From a virus: 21,535 nucleotides of DNA. The stretch is from IMG/VR virus record IMGVR_UViG_3300025759_000829, positions 1 through 21,535 of that record. One strand, 5' to 3'. Positions within the stretch are counted from its first letter, which is position 1. Every line of letters begins with the position of its first letter. Positions 11,579-21,346 of the stretch are shown one piece after another. The notes beneath the pieces are model-generated. The model searched no databases. It saw only the letters and a list, made by a program, of their open reading frames with translations, and was not told the origin of the DNA. The position numbers and the translations under genes are program-made.

Positions 11579-12773
11579 TTAAGTGCTCGATCCTCATGCC
11601 AACAGGCACACGTCTCCTCATGTTATTAGGGAACATCAAATCAAACTGACTACTTACCATCGATCCACGAATACGACCTTCAAAACCGTTTCTTGCACTT
11701 GTTTGTAATAGATTGTAAAGAGGTTCTGCGTCAGCAGTGATGATCGATCTTCTTGAGTCACCCCATACTTGATAAAAGTTTATTCTCTCACCTGGTGAGC
11801 ACAATGGGACAAAGTTGTGAATGAAGTGCTGATATAAATCTATTTGATCAAGCCGAGCATCCAAGTCAAAGTCCAAGACAGAATCGCGATAAGTGCCGAT
11901 ATAATTTGAAGTGTATCCTCCACCAATCTTCCTCCTTGATTGAGCAACATTCTCAACATTGATATGATGTCTTTGATAAGGTCGTGACGGAACAAGCACA
12001 CCCGAGCAAGGATATGTTGCAGTTAAAACAGTGTATCCGTTGACTGTTGTTGTTGACTCTGTACCTGTGAACCCGAGAAATCTTCTCAATGTATTGTCTG
12101 TTGTATTCCAAAGCCATGAAGTTGCCAAAGCTGAATTAACAACATGACCAGCATCATTCAAATACCATCTTGTGTCTGAGCTTGTTGCAGCGACATCAGC
12201 AGCTTCCAAAGAGTTCGATCCATCATCAGCGTCACCATTGCCACGAACACGACAAGCCACGACAAGATCTTGAGCTCCACCGGTAAAGTTGAATAAGAAT
12301 GTGTTTGATCCTCCTGAGGTTTGTTCAATCTCATAAGAGAATGATACAATCTCACCTCTTGACCACTCTGAAGGAGCTGTCACAAGATTGGTCAGCTTTG
12401 GACCTAAGACAGATCCACCTGCATTGGAATTGATAAAGGTTGTACCAATGCCAAAGACATCAGTGACACCGTCGAGAGTTGATGATGAGTTGAATCTAAT
12501 TCTGAATACTCCATCAGATGAAATCTCAAGCTTGTCATTCTCATCAATGCCGACGTGCCAATCAGTTCCAAAGTTGGACGATGCCAAACAGAATGCAGAC
12601 AAGTCCTTGCCTGTGGCCATTCCTCTACCGTTAAGCATCGAAATCATATCTTCATAGTTTGACAACCAAGTCACGTCAACATTTGTCGAGCTTCTTGTTC
12701 CTGCTCTTGTTGGAAAGCTTGACATGTCAAGACCTGTCAAGAGTGCGAAGTTGGGAGATGGTGATGGATTCAT
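11571..12773 (-). CDS. tail protein following the tape measure, distal-tail-like, putative
   Basis: This 400-residue protein starts in an ATGA overlap with the tape measure stop, with AAGGAGA upstream. The gene right after the tape measure in siphoviruses usually encodes the distal tail protein or the first minor tail protein, which joins the tube to the tip. Residues about 55-300 look like an inserted beta domain (DGVFRIRFNSSS, SFSYEIEQTSGGSNTFLFNF). The C-terminal 120 residues have a more compact, conserved look (YRDSVLDFDLDARLDQIDLY, ERINFYQVWGDSRR, QFDLMFP), as expected for the tail-binding part. No family was recognised. Function is inferred from gene order. Confidence 0.65.
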   Translation of the reverse strand: MNPSPSPNFALLTGLDMSSFPTRAGTRSSTNVDVTWLSNYEDMISMLNGRGMATGKDLSAFCLASSNFGTDWHVGIDENDKLEISSDGVFRIRFNSSSTLDGVTDVFGIGTTFINSNAGGSVLGPKLTNLVTAPSEWSRGEIVSFSYEIEQTSGGSNTFLFNFTGGAQDLVVACRVRGNGDADDGSNSLEAADVAATSSDTRWYLNDAGHVVNSALATSWLWNTTDNTLRRFLGFTGTESTTTVNGYTVLTATYPCSGVLVPSRPYQRHHINVENVAQSRRKIGGGYTSNYIGTYRDSVLDFDLDARLDQIDLYQHFIHNFVPLCSPGERINFYQVWGDSRRSIITADAEPLYNLLQTSARNGFEGRIRGSMVSSQFDLMFPNNMRRRVPVGMRIEHLNE

Positions 12774-14863
12774 GACATTCTCCTTGCGCCACGTCGACTT
12801 CTCGACATGACTTTTGTTATGCGATCGGCAAGAGCTTCCTCGGCTGCTCGTTTTGTATCATACACGACAGCACCCGAAAAGTTAATATTAAAGACTTGAG
12901 TTGAGGTTGTGGCCTCTTCTCTCTGTGGAGCTTGACCAACTGTTTGGGGTGATCCACTTGGAGACACACCACCAGCACCACCAGCACCACCTCCACCACC
13001 TCCACCCATTGCTGATCCTGCGAGACCTGCTGCTCCTGCTGCTGCTGTGAAGATACCTGCTGCTTTAAAGAAGCCCGGTGCTGCTGCTGCTGTCAATGGA
13101 TTTGCTAAAGCTGCAAAACCTTTGGCAGTGTTCATCAGTGCTTCAACTGCTGCTTGTTGTGACAAGGCCATGAGTAAAGCACCGACTGACTCCTTGAAGG
13201 ATTCACCAAAGAACAAAGCACCAACGGCAGCCTCAGCAAAGCCACGTCCCATTTGACCAAAGAATCCTTGAACGGCTTTCATGGCTTGACTTGATTCATT
13301 GGTGATCAAGCTCAATCTCTCAATTCCATGCCTTCTCTGAAGCTCTGTGATTTGTTCCTGGTTGCCTTGAGCCTGTTGTAATTGTTGATCATAGTTGAAT
13401 TGCAAAAGTGCAAGCTCTCTCTCAAGATCATTCTCAGTCTGCTCAATATTGAAGCGTCTTGTTTCAAGTACAAACGCTTGACGCTTTTGAGCTTCCTCTT
13501 GTTCAATCCTTGTTTTCTTGGTTTCTTCTTGTTTGGTGATTGCGTTGAGCTGATTGTAATATGTGAGAGTTGCAATCTGTTGCTGTCTTTGATTGTCTTT
13601 AGCCAGCTTCAGAGAGACATTGTATTGATGAGTAATAAGCTCTATTTGTTTTTGGATGGAGTCCTCTTGGCTTTGAATCTTCAATTGTTCAATCCTTGCT
13701 TCTTCAGCAAAAATCCTCAATGCCTCTTGTTCTCTTCTTTGAGCATCAGCTTTCTCTCGGTCTCTTCGTCTTTGAGCTGCCTCCATGCTTCGTCTTGCAC
13801 GTTCTTGTCTTTTCTTTTCAGCTTCCTTCTCAATCTTCTCAACCTTCTTGACTGTTTGTTGATTGACAAGTGCTCTCTGATCGAGTGCTTGTATCTCTGC
13901 CTCAATCGCTTTGTTTTGTGCTTGAAGTGCTTTTTGATTCTCTTCGTTTTCTTTGGCATATATCAAAGCCAACTGAGCACGTCTCTCAATCTCAATCTTT
14001 GCAAGTTGAGCAGACTCCTCAGATAGTTTGTTTTCATGCTCGATAATCTTGAGTGACTTTAGTCTCTCAATGTTCTCTTTGACCTTAGCAGAAAGAAACT
14101 CAGCAGAACTCTCCTCAAGCTCTTTGTATTTCTTGGCTTGCTCCTCAAGATCCTTTGAGACTTGCTTTTGTAAAGGTTCTAAAACCTTGAGTTGTTTTTC
14201 AACTTCCTTTTGAGCCTTATTAAAAGCTTTCTGAGCTTCATCTTGTTTGTTTGCAAGGTTGATGACTTCACGTGCATTTTGAGCAGTGATCTCAATATTC
14301 TCACCTCTTGCTTTTTTCAGTTGTTGTTCAGCTTCAAATTGTCTTTGAAAAGCTTTGGTTAGCTTCTCTTGTGCAAACTGCAACTTTTCTTTTGCAAACT
14401 GTGATTCAAGAATGCCAAGTGATAACTTTTGAAGTTCGTCACCAAGAGGTAAAACACCTTTTTCACTCAAGGCTTCAAGCTTACTTTGCAAGTCACCAGC
14501 TGCTGCAGACATTGCGCTTGTGTTTTCCTCAGCTTCTTGAGCTGCACCACTGATCAACTTGAATGTTTCATAAAGGCCAAAGCCAGCAGTCACCACCATC
14601 CCAATGGGACCAAGTAAAGCAGTGAACCCCATGACACCACTTTGAGAAGCTTGACTCATGCTTCCCTTGAGATCACCAAAGGCATCGACAAGACCAAAGA
14701 CAGACTCCCCAATTGACCCCAAGCCTTCACCAAGTTTCTCATTGGTTGACCCCATGTTTTCAGCAAGTTTCTTGCCTGCCTCTCCAATGGAGCCAAGACC
14801 GTCTTTAATATCTTTGGTCCCTGTCAGCTCGACATCAATCTCTATTGTGCCACCATTAGCCAT
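12770..14863 (-). CDS. tail tape measure protein
   Basis: This 697-residue protein sets tail length and is thought to be ejected to help form the DNA channel. Seen: an N-terminal segment with Gly-rich repeats (GLGSIGEAG, GLGSIGES), a hydrophobic stretch (about 76-105), and a long coiled-coil rod (about 115-520) rich in Glu, Lys, Gln and Arg. A hydrophobic, Ala/Gly-rich part (about 524-615) with GFFGQMGRGFAEAAVGALFFG follows, then a Gly tract (about 618-632) and a basic C-terminus with RSRRGARRMS. At about 0.15 nm per residue, the usual rule for siphoviruses, it predicts a tail near 105 nm. The ATG has AAGGAGG seven bases upstream and overlaps the end of the chaperone frameshift extension by eight bases, the classical order chaperone-then-tape measure. 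Confidence 0.93.
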   Translation of the reverse strand: MANGGTIEIDVELTGTKDIKDGLGSIGEAGKKLAENMGSTNEKLGEGLGSIGESVFGLVDAFGDLKGSMSQASQSGVMGFTALLGPIGMVVTAGFGLYETFKLISGAAQEAEENTSAMSAAAGDLQSKLEALSEKGVLPLGDELQKLSLGILESQFAKEKLQFAQEKLTKAFQRQFEAEQQLKKARGENIEITAQNAREVINLANKQDEAQKAFNKAQKEVEKQLKVLEPLQKQVSKDLEEQAKKYKELEESSAEFLSAKVKENIERLKSLKIIEHENKLSEESAQLAKIEIERRAQLALIYAKENEENQKALQAQNKAIEAEIQALDQRALVNQQTVKKVEKIEKEAEKKRQERARRSMEAAQRRRDREKADAQRREQEALRIFAEEARIEQLKIQSQEDSIQKQIELITHQYNVSLKLAKDNQRQQQIATLTYYNQLNAITKQEETKKTRIEQEEAQKRQAFVLETRRFNIEQTENDLERELALLQFNYDQQLQQAQGNQEQITELQRRHGIERLSLITNESSQAMKAVQGFFGQMGRGFAEAAVGALFFGESFKESVGALLMALSQQAAVEALMNTAKGFAALANPLTAAAAPGFFKAAGIFTAAAGAAGLAGSAMGGGGGGGAGGAGGVSPSGSPQTVGQAPQREEATTSTQVFNINFSGAVVYDTKRAAEEALADRITKVMSRSRRGARRMS

Positions 14864-15281
14864 ATGAAGCCTCCTTCATGCTTTGCTCGTGTTGACGTGC
14901 AATCATTTGGTTGTGATTATATTCTATTATCTCAAGACTTTCAATGATTGCACAAGTAGGAGCAGGATATATGTCATCCATCTTGATCAATCCTGTCTTG
15001 ATTCTGTTGTAGTTTGTAATGAGTGAAGCAACTCGATTCATGTCTGCAATGGGACATGATCTAATCTTTAAATCAGAGTATGCCTCTCCTGAGTTGGGTG
15101 CGATTCGATAAGCTGGCATAAACAATCCAAGCTCATCCTTTTGAGCTTGTGGAAGTCCCTGTTGAAATGATCCTCCACAATTCCCACGCTTTCGCCTCAG
15201 TCCCTTGTCACTCCTACACTGTGAACAATCCCAGCCTCTTCCTTTACTAAAAGGAATCCATATGGAAGAGGCAAGAGCTAT
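14856..15281 (-). CDS. tail assembly chaperone, -1 frameshift extension (lambda GT-like)
   Basis: This frame is not a separate gene: the only early starts are a TTG at 15125 and an ATG at 15119 without a good ribosome binding site. Reading upstream, the frame stays open to 15290 and is closed by a TGA at 15293-15291, just before the slippery heptamer. Ribosomes slipping back at GGGAAAA would continue from ATA (15281) for 141 residues, making a fusion of 311 with the preceding chaperone. In lambda the corresponding GT protein holds the tape measure while tube subunits assemble. The extension begins IALASSIWIPF and contains a cysteine cluster: CSQC (extension residues 19-22), C35 in GNCGG, and C76 in SCPIAD, a possible zinc site. 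A helical region with IIESLEIIEYNHNQ ends it. It overlaps the tape measure gene by eight bases. Confidence 0.85.
   Translation of the reverse strand: MALASSIWIPFSKGRGWDCSQCRSDKGLRRKRGNCGGSFQQGLPQAQKDELGLFMPAYRIAPNSGEAYSDLKIRSCPIADMNRVASLITNYNRIKTGLIKMDDIYPAPTCAIIESLEIIEYNHNQMIARQHEQSMKEASYG
14870..14876 (-). promoter_or_regulatory. strong ribosome binding site of the tape measure gene
   Basis: AAGGAGG on the minus strand, six bases before the ATG at 14863, located inside the end of the chaperone extension. It allows tape measure synthesis independent of how often ribosomes enter the -1 frame. Confidence 0.7.
15234..15272 (-). promoter_or_regulatory. frameshift-stimulating stem-loop
   Basis: On the minus strand GCCTCTTCC (15272-15264) pairs perfectly with GGAAGAGGC (15242-15234), leaving a 21-base loop. 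The stem starts eight bases after the slippery heptamer, the spacing usual for -1 frameshift stimulators. The loop side also holds a second perfect 7-bp hairpin (15256-15250 with 15245-15239, loop of four) that uses part of the same GGAA strand, so the two stems compete. Confidence 0.75.
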
Positions 15282-15790
15282 TTTCCCGAGTCACCCACAA
15301 GAGACGCTCTCTGAATATGCAAGACCAACTCTGTGATTGTTGTCACACGCATACCGTCGGGACGAATCTGTTGAATCATCTCGATTGTACCAGGTTGACC
15401 ATCGATTGACACAAGGCTTTCACGAATCATTTCAAGATACACTCTTGAGATGTATGCTTCATAATCTGCATAAGCTTCACGTTCGTCAATGGGAAGCTTG
15501 TGATGCCATCTTGCTTTTTCTCTTGAATCGTTGGGAGCCTCAACCCACAGCAAGCGACCGAGCTCACTGCGAGAATAGGCACCTGCACGAATCTCGGCTT
15601 GTTCTCTCTCAGCAGGACCCAAAGGTCTGAGAGTGAAAACAGTTGCCTTCTCTCCCACATCTTCAAGCACATTCATGTCACCAGTGTTCAAATATTGTCC
15701 ACGTTGGTCATCTGTGCAAGTCACTGATATGTCAGCAGTGACAACCACGTCAAAGGTTGTATTTGTAGATGTGAGAAAGTTAATGGCCAT
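15278..15790 (-). CDS. tail assembly chaperone (lambda gpG-like), zero-frame product
   Basis: This 170-residue protein lies between the tail tube gene and the tape measure, the place of the lambda G gene. Its identity rests on position and on the frameshift signal at its very end (the last codons GGA AAA are in the slippery heptamer), not on a sequence match. Sequence: a beta-like start (TFDVVVTADISVTC), then a helical, charged body with FTLRPLGPAEREQAEIRAG (about 52-70) and a helix with DYEAYISRVYLEMIRESLVS (about 108-127), ending in VLHIQRASLVGDSGK. The short form should coat the tape measure and recruit tube subunits, with the fused form in the minority. The ATG starts one base after the tube gene stop, with a modest TTAGGA ribosome binding site. 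Confidence 0.82.
   Translation of the reverse strand: MAINFLTSTNTTFDVVVTADISVTCTDDQRGQYLNTGDMNVLEDVGEKATVFTLRPLGPAEREQAEIRAGAYSRSELGRLLWVEAPNDSREKARWHHKLPIDEREAYADYEAYISRVYLEMIRESLVSIDGQPGTIEMIQQIRPDGMRVTTITELVLHIQRASLVGDSGK
15281..15287 (-). promoter_or_regulatory. programmed -1 ribosomal frameshift slippery site GGGAAAA
   Basis: In the zero frame the codons are TCG GGA AAA TAG, so the heptamer has the required X XXY YYZ phase. After slipping, GGG AAA are read and translation continues with ATA GCT CTT. It differs from the lambda G-GT heptamer GGGAAAG in the last base only. The zero-frame stop codon follows at once, which may add pausing. Confidence 0.85.
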
Positions 15791-15791
15791 A

Positions 15792-17093
15792 TTATAGTCC
15801 TAATGAGATTCTGAATGGTGAACATCCTGCATTTGACTCATAAGCAGATCCACCACTAACATCACCGGCAAAGCGTGATTGATTATACACGAGAGTCTGA
15901 CGAACGATGTCATTACCACTCACGTCATATTTTGATGGATCATCTGCAAGCTGAGCAGCAGGAATCATGATTGCACAACCTTCGCCATCAGCTGAAGGTC
16001 CTGTCCCTACTAACACTTGACGAACTGTTCTGTTGAAGTAATCATTTGCAATTGTTGTATTTACAGTTGACAAGGTCAAAGTCAATTCAACATTTACGTC
16101 AGTGATTTCCATGTCAGACATCGCAAGGATTGATTCAGAATGACCAAGAGGAGTCAAGGTATTTGTCACAGTCAAAGAGAAGTCCTCACAATCAACAGCA
16201 ATTCGTCCGAGTGCGTCAGCACTTGTTGCATTTGTCAATGAAGATGGTGAAGCATTCGAGATCACGACATAAGAGTTTCTGAAGAAAGGTGGCGCGCCTG
16301 CGTTGTATGTTGGCTCGATTGGTCCCACTGCACTTGAATGATCATCTTGAATAAGTGCTGCTTGATATGTGAAGTCACCCATTAAGCGACCATTGTCAAG
16401 ACTGATAGCAAGGCTCTCAAGTACGCAACCATAAGCATAAGAACGGAAGTTCACACCATCAACACGAAAAGTCAGTGAGTGAGTTCTTGTGCCTGTTTGA
16501 GTTCTTGAACCTGGATACCAAGTTTGAGTCCCTCTCAATGTTGGAGTACCTGTGAATCCTGCTGAGAAAGCTGGTGAGACTGTCACAGTTGTACCACTCA
16601 CTTCAGTGATTGCAGAGTATTCAACAGCACCATTGATGATGCTTGACAACAATGTGCCAATGTCAGCAGCTGCGAAACCTGTGGCTTCAACATTATTGAC
16701 ATCGGTGACGCTTGATGCTGCTACTGATGCAACACTTCCAACTTGAGTTTTAAATCCTGCGCCCAACAAGTATCCGAGATAGTTGGCTGAGTAATCGCTT
16801 GGAGTGCTTCCGATTGTTGTCAGATCAACTCTCAAGTTCACTTGTCCTGTTCTACGACGGACACGATTGGCACCGTTCCAAACTGTGTCGGGCTCTGGTG
16901 GTACAAGATACGATCCATCTCTTGCATCGTTTCTCTCACTTGCCACAACGTCACCATAGATTAAGATTGGTTCACGTTCACAAGGGATCGAAGTATATGT
17001 GTATCCTGAGTTGTCAGGTAGATTTGTGGATGATGACAGTGAACCAAAGCTGGTCTCAACTGCAACGCTTAAGCTTCTATGCGTAACACTCAT
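15792..17093 (-). CDS. major tail tube protein
   Basis: This 433-residue protein starts at the ATG at 17093. A 23-residue upstream extension (hydrophobic, MMLVRFLVTCLLFLLIF) is the terminator gene read in another frame; the GGAGG at 17104-17100 and the stop of the preceding gene one base before the ATG settle this. Residues 1-118 and about 190-433 have the strand-rich look of tube proteins (RTGQVNLRVDLTTIG, RTHSLTFRVDGVNF, DFTYQAAL, DVNVELTLTLSTVNTTIAND). Between them lies an apparent extra module (about 119-188) with ADIGTLLSSI and ITEVSGTTVTVSPAF. It is long compared with lambda gpV (246 residues). Being placed between the terminator and chaperone genes supports the call. It assembles as stacked rings around the tape measure. 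Confidence 0.83.
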   Translation of the reverse strand: MSVTHRSLSVAVETSFGSLSSSTNLPDNSGYTYTSIPCEREPILIYGDVVASERNDARDGSYLVPPEPDTVWNGANRVRRRTGQVNLRVDLTTIGSTPSDYSANYLGYLLGAGFKTQVGSVASVAASSVTDVNNVEATGFAAADIGTLLSSIINGAVEYSAITEVSGTTVTVSPAFSAGFTGTPTLRGTQTWYPGSRTQTGTRTHSLTFRVDGVNFRSYAYGCVLESLAISLDNGRLMGDFTYQAALIQDDHSSAVGPIEPTYNAGAPPFFRNSYVVISNASPSSLTNATSADALGRIAVDCEDFSLTVTNTLTPLGHSESILAMSDMEITDVNVELTLTLSTVNTTIANDYFNRTVRQVLVGTGPSADGEGCAIMIPAAQLADDPSKYDVSGNDIVRQTLVYNQSRFAGDVSGGSAYESNAGCSPFRISLGL

Positions 17094-17094
17094 G

Positions 17095-17559
17095 TTAAGC
17101 CTCCAAATATAAAAGATCAAAAGGAACAACAAGCAAGTGACCAAGAATCTCACCAACATCATCAGTGATCAACTCTGCTCTTGATTGCAATGGTATCACC
17201 GAGATGATCCCTGTTGTATTAAATTCATATTGAGGACCCTTGATTGTATCAATCAGTTTTCCGGCATCCTCGTTCATCATGCGAATCTTGAAGCCTTCCT
17301 CTTTCGGAATAGCATATCGCACATTTATCTCGATGGTGACACGCTTCCGACCACTGAGGCCAGCACTGCCGTCATCCATTGCGAGTGAAACGATCTCAAG
17401 AGTAAATTGTCTTTGACTCTGAAATCTTGTGTTTAGTGGAGAGACAAGGCCCGAGCCGTCATCAATGCAGACAAAGCCATGATGAGAGTCAGTCTTTGGA
17501 TCAATTGCCTCAATCATTGTCTTGATCTTGTCAAGTGCTTGAAAGATTCCTCTGCTCAT
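17095..17559 (-). CDS. tail terminator protein (lambda gpU-like), putative
   Basis: This 154-residue protein starts in an ATGA overlap with the gpG/gp10-like gene and ends one base before the tail tube ATG. Its size and position fit the terminator, which caps the tube at the right length and joins it to the head. Seen: an N-terminal helix (GIFQALDKIKTMIEAID), then beta strands FTLEIVSLAMDD and VTIEINVRYAIP, a helix with NEDAGKLIDTIKG, and ELITDDVGEILGHLLVVPF near the end. Alternating helix and sheet of this kind is typical for tail terminators. No diagnostic motif exists, so the call rests on order and length. Confidence 0.7.
   Translation of the reverse strand: MSRGIFQALDKIKTMIEAIDPKTDSHHGFVCIDDGSGLVSPLNTRFQSQRQFTLEIVSLAMDDGSAGLSGRKRVTIEINVRYAIPKEEGFKIRMMNEDAGKLIDTIKGPQYEFNTTGIISVIPLQSRAELITDDVGEILGHLLVVPFDLLYLEA
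17100..17104 (-). promoter_or_regulatory. ribosome binding site deciding the tail tube start
   Basis: GGAGG six bases before the ATG at 17093, inside the last codons (Leu-Glu-Ala) of the upstream gene. It rules out the hydrophobic N-terminal extension. Confidence 0.75.
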
Positions 17560-19939: not shown

Positions 19940-20950
19940 TTATACTAAGCAATCAGTAAGGATATACCCAAGAGTTGAGTCAATCGCTTTGAACTGTTGA
20001 ACTTCTTCAGCGTATACATAGCGACGTGTCGCGTCAAGGCTGTCATATTGACCTGCTTGCATTCCACCAAAATCGAAGTTAAGTGCTGCCACAGGCATTC
20101 CTTTGACATTACCACTCTTTTGTACAATTGCGTCAGCACCTTTCATGATGCCACAGAAGATTGTTTCAGTGTTCCAAATTTGTGATTCTGATGAAGTTGC
20201 ACCAGGTACAGCAGTCTCGCGACGAGCTTCACCAACGTAGATATTTGGAATGCCAAGGATGTTGCGTAAAACTTCTTTTGTTGCTTCTTCAGTAAGAATA
20301 CGGTTGCCACTTGCGAAAGCACCTGCACCACTCACGTCACCAGCATAACCACGTACTTCGGGATTACGAGCTAATGAACGGAATACACCACGACCAAAGA
20401 TCAAGGTGTCTGCATTGATACCATGAGCAGCAGCAAAGACAAGATCTTTTAATTTGTCAAGACCTGTCAAAGCGTCAGTGCCTGCTGCGTCAACTTTGCC
20501 ACCCATAACATTGGTACATGTATCATTTGAGAATGAAGCTGTATCAAAGATTAAGTTTGCAGCACGTTGCTCTTTTGCAAGCATCATCGCGCGACGTACT
20601 TTGCGAACGATACGAGCTTCTTCACCACCAGGATATTGACTGTCAATGATGTCTTCCATTGCGATCGAATCTTGTGCAGAGTAGATCTTTGCTTTGAAAG
20701 TCAAGCTAGTACGATCAAATGAACCAATGTTCGCACGACCTGCACCAGGAGCACGTTCAAGGTCAAGACCAACACCAGCACCCATGAAGTTGCGACTATT
20801 CTCTAAAAGAAATGTACCACTTCTCTCAGGGATCTTCACGTTTTCAAAGATTTGGTTTGCAATGAGTTGACTGTCTGAAGGTACAACCTCAGACACAAGG
20901 GACGTTAGAATCTCGTCGACTGGATGAATAACACTGTATGAACTAGCCAT
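19940..20950 (-). CDS. major capsid protein
   Basis: This 336-residue protein builds the icosahedral shell. It follows the decoration-type gene by nine bases, with TAGGAGTG before the ATG. Seen: an N-terminal arm (PVDEILTSLVSEVV), then a region with FDRTSLTFKAKIYSAQDSIAM (about 78-98) resembling the E-loop/long strand part, a helix with EEARIVRKVRRAMMLAKEQR (about 109-128; spine-helix-like), DTLIFGRGVFRSLARNPEV (about 181-199), NIYVGEARRET (about 239-249), and a C-terminal strand region with YDSLDATRRYVYAEEVQQFK. Length and layout fit an HK97-fold capsid protein of the lambda gpE type. No long delta domain precedes it, agreeing with a separate scaffold/protease gene upstream. The family is assigned from pattern and order. 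Confidence 0.88.
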   Translation of the reverse strand: MASSYSVIHPVDEILTSLVSEVVPSDSQLIANQIFENVKIPERSGTFLLENSRNFMGAGVGLDLERAPGAGRANIGSFDRTSLTFKAKIYSAQDSIAMEDIIDSQYPGGEEARIVRKVRRAMMLAKEQRAANLIFDTASFSNDTCTNVMGGKVDAAGTDALTGLDKLKDLVFAAAHGINADTLIFGRGVFRSLARNPEVRGYAGDVSGAGAFASGNRILTEEATKEVLRNILGIPNIYVGEARRETAVPGATSSESQIWNTETIFCGIMKGADAIVQKSGNVKGMPVAALNFDFGGMQAGQYDSLDATRRYVYAEEVQQFKAIDSTLGYILTDCLV

Positions 20951-20959
20951 GAGTCACTC

Positions 20960-21346
20960 CTATGGTAATAAGTTGTTTGCACCAGTGAAAACGACAAGTA
21001 ATTGGTCATTTGCTGAGGCACTTGTTTGGTTGATGTTAGGAATTACGCGAGCGATTGCATAGTTTCCACTTGTCGCATGAGCAGCAACTGCACCAGCAGT
21101 CGTAGCCATTACTAAAGGAGAAGTGTTGAAAGTGATTGCACCACCAGCGATAACACGAGTTAAGCCATGGATGACAACGTCAACAGCTTCACCAGCTGAG
21201 GCAGCACGTTGAGCAACACCAACACAAGCTGCGTCAGTTGCTGCAGTAGTGACTGCAACTTTTCCATTGCCGTCGATGCTGACAAGTGCGAATTCAGTGA
21301 TTGCACCTGCTGCGATAAATGATTGAATGATTTGTGTGTCAGCCAT
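20960..21346 (-). CDS. capsid decoration / cement protein (DUF2190-like)
   Basis: This 128-residue protein is rich in Ala, Gly, Thr and Val, with no charged helices. The start is ATG at 21346, with GGAGG about nine bases upstream in the end of the preceding gene. Strands such as FALVSIDGNGKVAVTTA, CVGVAQRAASAGEAVDVVIHG and TRVIAGGAITFNTSP fit the small beta-barrel decoration proteins that bind the capsid surface after expansion. Position between protease/scaffold and major capsid genes is the same as for lambda gpD. Confidence in decoration is good from gene order and composition; the DUF2190 link is by eye. Confidence 0.82.
   Translation of the reverse strand: MADTQIIQSFIAAGAITEFALVSIDGNGKVAVTTAATDAACVGVAQRAASAGEAVDVVIHGLTRVIAGGAITFNTSPLVMATTAGAVAAHATSGNYAIARVIPNINQTSASANDQLLVVFTGANNLLP

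Follow-up and report, generated by a model that had tools for sequence, protein, structure and literature searches.

The window analysed here is a 21.5-kb metagenomic virus record (IMGVR_UViG_3300025759_000829, 21,535 nt) of an uncultivated tailed phage. As listed in Table 1, an ORF of 170 codons (hereafter G) is followed by a −1-frame region (T) and by a tape measure gene, all on the minus strand. G runs from an ATG at 15790 to a TAG at 15278, and its 3′ end reads TCG GGA AAA TAG. The original prediction, made from this DNA alone, had placed the heptamer GGGAAAA in the correct phase at the end of the 170-residue gene, and it is indeed found there at 15287–15281. The −1 frame is closed by a TGA at 15293–15291 and is then open from 15290 to a TAA at 14858–14856. 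CTC separates this TGA from the heptamer, so that the distance is three bases and not the four that had been counted. The remaining ORF readings were correct: the −1 frame stays open for 141 codons after the heptamer, into the start of the tape measure gene, and 13 nt (15290–15278) belong to both open frames. The tape measure ATG at 14863 gives an 8-nt overlap with T, and the AGGAGG ribosome-binding site of the tape measure gene falls within T. Since the first ATG/GTG/TTG in the −1 frame is a TTG at 15125, the region 15277–15126 appears empty to an ORF caller. This seemingly intergenic region is accounted for by the −1 frame, as had been proposed.

Table 1. Features of the G/T/tape measure locus in window coordinates
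Feature	Position	Strand	Basis
G, candidate tail assembly chaperone, 170 aa	15278..15790	−	ORF; kept in relatives; AlphaFold pLDDT 89.3; weak fold match
Slippery heptamer G GGA AAA	15281..15287	−	Invariant GGGAAA[A/G] in 120 distinct junctions; one change on tree
Zero-frame TAG stop, adjoining the 3′ end of the heptamer	15278..15280	−	Stop at that spot in 115/120 distinct junctions
Stem-loop 5′ arm, GCCUCUUCC, 8 nt past the heptamer	15264..15272	−	Synonymous-shuffle test; covariation; pairing in 77/78 loci
Stem-loop 3′ arm, GGAAGAGGC	15234..15242	−	91.9% of cells paired; 23 cells changed on both sides
T, predicted −1-frame part of a GT fusion, 141 codons + TAA	14856..15281	−	Lacks its own start codon; conserved cysteines, including CxxC; purifying selection from T codon 2
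Tape measure protein	12770..14863	−	Match to phrog_1538 (tail length tape measure; E 2e-7)
Probable tail tube protein, upstream of G	15792..17162	−	Position; ~430-aa ORF in 72/74 relatives; phrog_290 match in one relative

The order of the tube-like protein, G, T, and tape measure genes is conserved. A long ORF follows T in all of the 66 testable relatives, and the upstream ORF lies directly before G. In one relative, the upstream ORF matches the phrog_290 minor tail protein (E 8e-6); it is the probable tail tube gene, judging otherwise from its position. The called start of this ORF in the window gives 456 aa, and most relatives have 427–435 aa; the start is more likely the ATG at 17093 (433 aa). 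Further along the record, a scaffold/decoration-like protein (20960–21346; phrog_673, E 3e-14) precedes the major head protein (19940–20950; phrog_1005, E 3e-28), which has only two distant matches in cultured phages (Pseudomonas and Vibrio).

Neither G nor T has a match in Pfam or among 50,697 cultured-phage records, and none in PHROGs is convincing. There is no detectable sequence similarity to the lambda proteins either, in agreement with the original prediction. G matched no PDB chain by sequence, and a fold search of the PDB was also empty. The AlphaFold model of G is confident. When it was compared with viral models, the top-ranking hits that carry a name were tail assembly chaperones from Arthrobacter phage Molivia and similar actinophages, in short and extended forms (Molivia entries of 204 and 358 aa). 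The values are E ~4e-3, probability 0.99, a TM-score of 0.44–0.46 (below 0.5), and 16% identity. This fold likeness is suggestive. The chaperone label is drawn from gene order and a weak fold match, without sequence similarity. The AlphaFold model of T (pLDDT 53.8) is too poor for a fold search. T has invariant cysteines (C19-x2-C22, C35, C76, and C110; window 14859–15281), which, to judge from the sequence, might bind zinc. The only match of T in bacterial genomes is a short fragment, located at the end of a contig, in a Sphingomonadales metagenome bin (L110, CALGEE010000310.1). It may point to the host group, or it may be an artefact of binning.

Is the junction of the two frames conserved? 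T, G, and two T alignments served as queries against IMG/VR, and the relatives gathered have T identities from 100% down to ~45%. The searches gave 120 distinct junctions (72 + 48), and a maximum-likelihood tree was made of 78 non-redundant loci. In 120 of 120 distinct junctions, the last codons of G were found to contain GGGAAAA or, in one clade, GGGAAAG, with an unchanged codon phase. Thus, the frame change is at the same site across the related phages, as an alignment had been expected to reveal. On the 78-locus tree, the seven bases of the heptamer have changed 0, 0, 0, 0, 0, 0, and 1 times, and the wobble bases upstream in G have changed 16–32 times each. The codon preceding GGA has changed its amino acid 21 times and its third base, G, never. 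The glycine codon of the slip site is GGA in all, and elsewhere in G only 16% of the glycine codons are GGA. A zero-frame stop directly follows the heptamer in most junctions (Table 1), and the exceptions in the non-redundant set stop two codons on. Loci L099, L139, L145, L149, and L172 have lost the stop after the heptamer (TCG or CAG), and in the members checked, two more codons follow before the zero frame closes. One further G gene (L038 4001–4510/L030 upstream of 3995; IMGVR_UViG_3300008012_004924) carries a premature stop, 8 codons upstream of the slip site. This would abolish full-length G and GT, and may be a real mutant or a sequencing error.

The original prediction missed a conserved stem-loop downstream of the heptamer, whose 5′ and 3′ arms in the window are given in Table 1. 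Across 40 non-redundant loci, folding of the 51-nt stretch behind the slip site is stronger than that of synonymous-codon shuffles of the same protein (mean z −2.48; p<0.05 in 72% of loci). In the same test, windows further along T gave a mean z of −0.9 to +0.05, and those starting at least 12 nt into T showed no comparable excess of folding. The corresponding stretch of the analysed phage, folded as a single sequence, is unremarkable (z −1.45); it is the family that carries the hairpin signal. Pairing was compared in two registers. In the register of the window, 91.9% of cells pair and 23 are changed on both sides (slid controls, 44–69% paired), and in the second register, 83.6% pair and 20 are changed on both sides (slid controls, 41–71%); these percentages lean towards structure, since each locus was assigned to a register with its fold already known. 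The synonymous-shuffle test is free of this grouping bias. Positions +9 to +18 form a mean of 9.2 pairs, and at least six of these ten bases are paired in 77 of 78 loci. The register of the 3′ partner has changed at least 17 times on the tree while the hairpin was kept. The 8-nt spacer lies within the 5–9 nt found in many studied −1 frameshift cases (PMC5009743). Judged by these comparisons, the hairpin is selected beyond coding constraint. Rfam gave no match. An upstream Shine-Dalgarno stimulator was also considered and rejected: AGGUGA-like letters precede the slip site in many loci, and anti-SD pairing is not above that of synonymous shuffles. Such a stimulator is not a general requirement for −1 frameshifting.

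T behaves as a coding sequence from its beginning. On the 78-locus tree, T codon 2 has 35 codon changes versus 4 amino-acid changes, and T codon 3 has 39 versus 4. Variation in T codons 1–12 is greatest at third positions. Since codons 2 and 3 change often and their amino acids rarely, the coding function of the −1 frame begins at the slip site. An interruption of the −1 frame between the slip site and the distal domain, which would have spoken against a fusion, was seen in no relative. Readthrough of the stop codon was rejected because T is in the −1 frame and because the zero frame past the TAG closes after 1–76 codons at scattered places.

It is very unlikely that T is a separate gene, started at the TTG at 15125, at a non-standard ATA (15281), or by termination–reinitiation, with GGGAAAA being incidental. 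The selection on the −1 frame begins at codons 2–3, far upstream of the TTG at 15125, and a start at this TTG would remove the conserved CxxC region. Some lineages have GTA, ATC, or ACA as T codon 1; an ATA there is therefore not needed, which speaks against such a start. A separate gene also leaves the invariance of the heptamer without a reason. The original prediction held that T lacks a good start of its own, and this is true of the window and of most relatives: among the 120 distinct junctions, no in-frame ATG/GTG/TTG lies at or before T codon 2 outside one subclade. It is not true of that subclade (L049–L052, L115–L120, and L164), which had escaped notice; there, T codon 1 and/or T codon 2 is ATG, and this does favour a start of T. 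The junction reads GGGAAAATGATG in L049, L051, L052, L116–L120, and L164 and GGGAAAATAATG in L050 and L115. The state with an ATG at the junction arose once on the tree, the heptamer and hairpin are kept there, and the window phage falls outside the subclade. These phages might make free T alongside GT. A tentative extension, which I regard as rather doubtful, comes from the 5′ arm of the stimulator being fixed at the slip spacing and its 3′ partner being repeatedly replaced (~17 register changes) without loss of the hairpin, together with the ATGs of the subclade (GGGAAAATGATG): the same bases may serve both −1 frameshifting for GT and coupled initiation for free T.

The programmed −1 frameshift that had been predicted is thus supported, with selection on the −1 frame starting at the first codons after the slip. 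I consider it highly probable, on comparative sequence evidence, that a conserved programmed −1 ribosomal frameshift makes the G and G-T forms of a tail assembly chaperone. Comparison of the relatives shows that the slip site, the −1 frame, and the hairpin are all under selection; the slipping itself and the chaperone role are inferred. Most ribosomes would terminate at the TAG and release the 170-aa G. A minority would slip back by one base on G GGA AAA, with GGA in the P site and AAA in the A site, and the stem-loop 8 nt downstream would help this slip. After the slip, 141 more codons would be translated, giving a GT fusion of 311 aa. By analogy with lambda, G and GT may bind the tape measure protein, and the T part may recruit the tail tube protein.

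Could the two frames be joined by the slippage of an RNA polymerase instead of a ribosome? Such slippage might use the short homopolymer pair present here (GGG AAAA), but its runs are only 3 and 4 bases, and known runs for transcriptional slippage are far longer. The tolerance of GGGAAAG in one clade and the strict phase of G GGA AAA also stand against it, and ribosomal slippage accords with a translated stem-loop at a distance of 8 nt; I therefore take the transcriptional route to be extremely improbable. Two adjacent ORFs without an independent second start would, seen alone, resemble one gene broken by a frameshift mutation or an assembly error, but this has next to no likelihood, since the same break at the same heptamer recurs in 120 distinct sequences from many samples with T identity down to ~45–60%, and no relative with a single continuous G-T frame was found.

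The lambda gpG/gpGT frameshift is a conserved feature of long-tailed dsDNA phages (Xu, Hendrix and Duda 2004, as cited in PMC5009743). The lambda G and GT proteins, at a ratio of ~30:1, attach to the tape measure protein, and the tube protein is brought in by the T part (PMC5009743). The present locus resembles it in having two ORFs between the tape measure and the (here putative) tube protein, a predicted −1 slip on a G GGA AAR heptamer that ends the first ORF, and a second ORF without a start. The heptamer G_GGA_AAG is highly shift-prone in E. coli (PMC5009743), which may not resemble the host of this phage, and frameshifting of 6–7% was measured for two HK97-like chaperone genes (PMC3711429). 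Unlike lambda G/GT, with which it shares no detectable sequence similarity, this family has a conserved covarying stem-loop downstream and one subclade with an ATG at the junction. Like the dnaX cassette of E. coli, the locus combines a slippery heptamer with a stem-loop a short distance downstream. In contrast, dnaX has an additional upstream Shine-Dalgarno-like stimulator (PMC3711429), for which no selection was found in this family, and its shift yields a shorter product, while the shift here would yield a longer one.

The G/GT arrangement is already established, and a frameshift at this place would be expected by specialists in long-tailed phages; what is new is the phage family, the conserved hairpin with a changing partner, and the ATG subclade. 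The value lies in unusually complete comparative evidence for a stimulatory hairpin. On strong comparative grounds, the G/GT frameshift is extended to a phage family that is absent from the searched cultured-phage records and unnamed in Pfam and PHROGs, and in which T would be cut short or overlooked by gene callers. The family also provides natural material for studying how the position and strength of a stem tune frameshifting: one slip site followed by a selected hairpin, in ~80 divergent versions.
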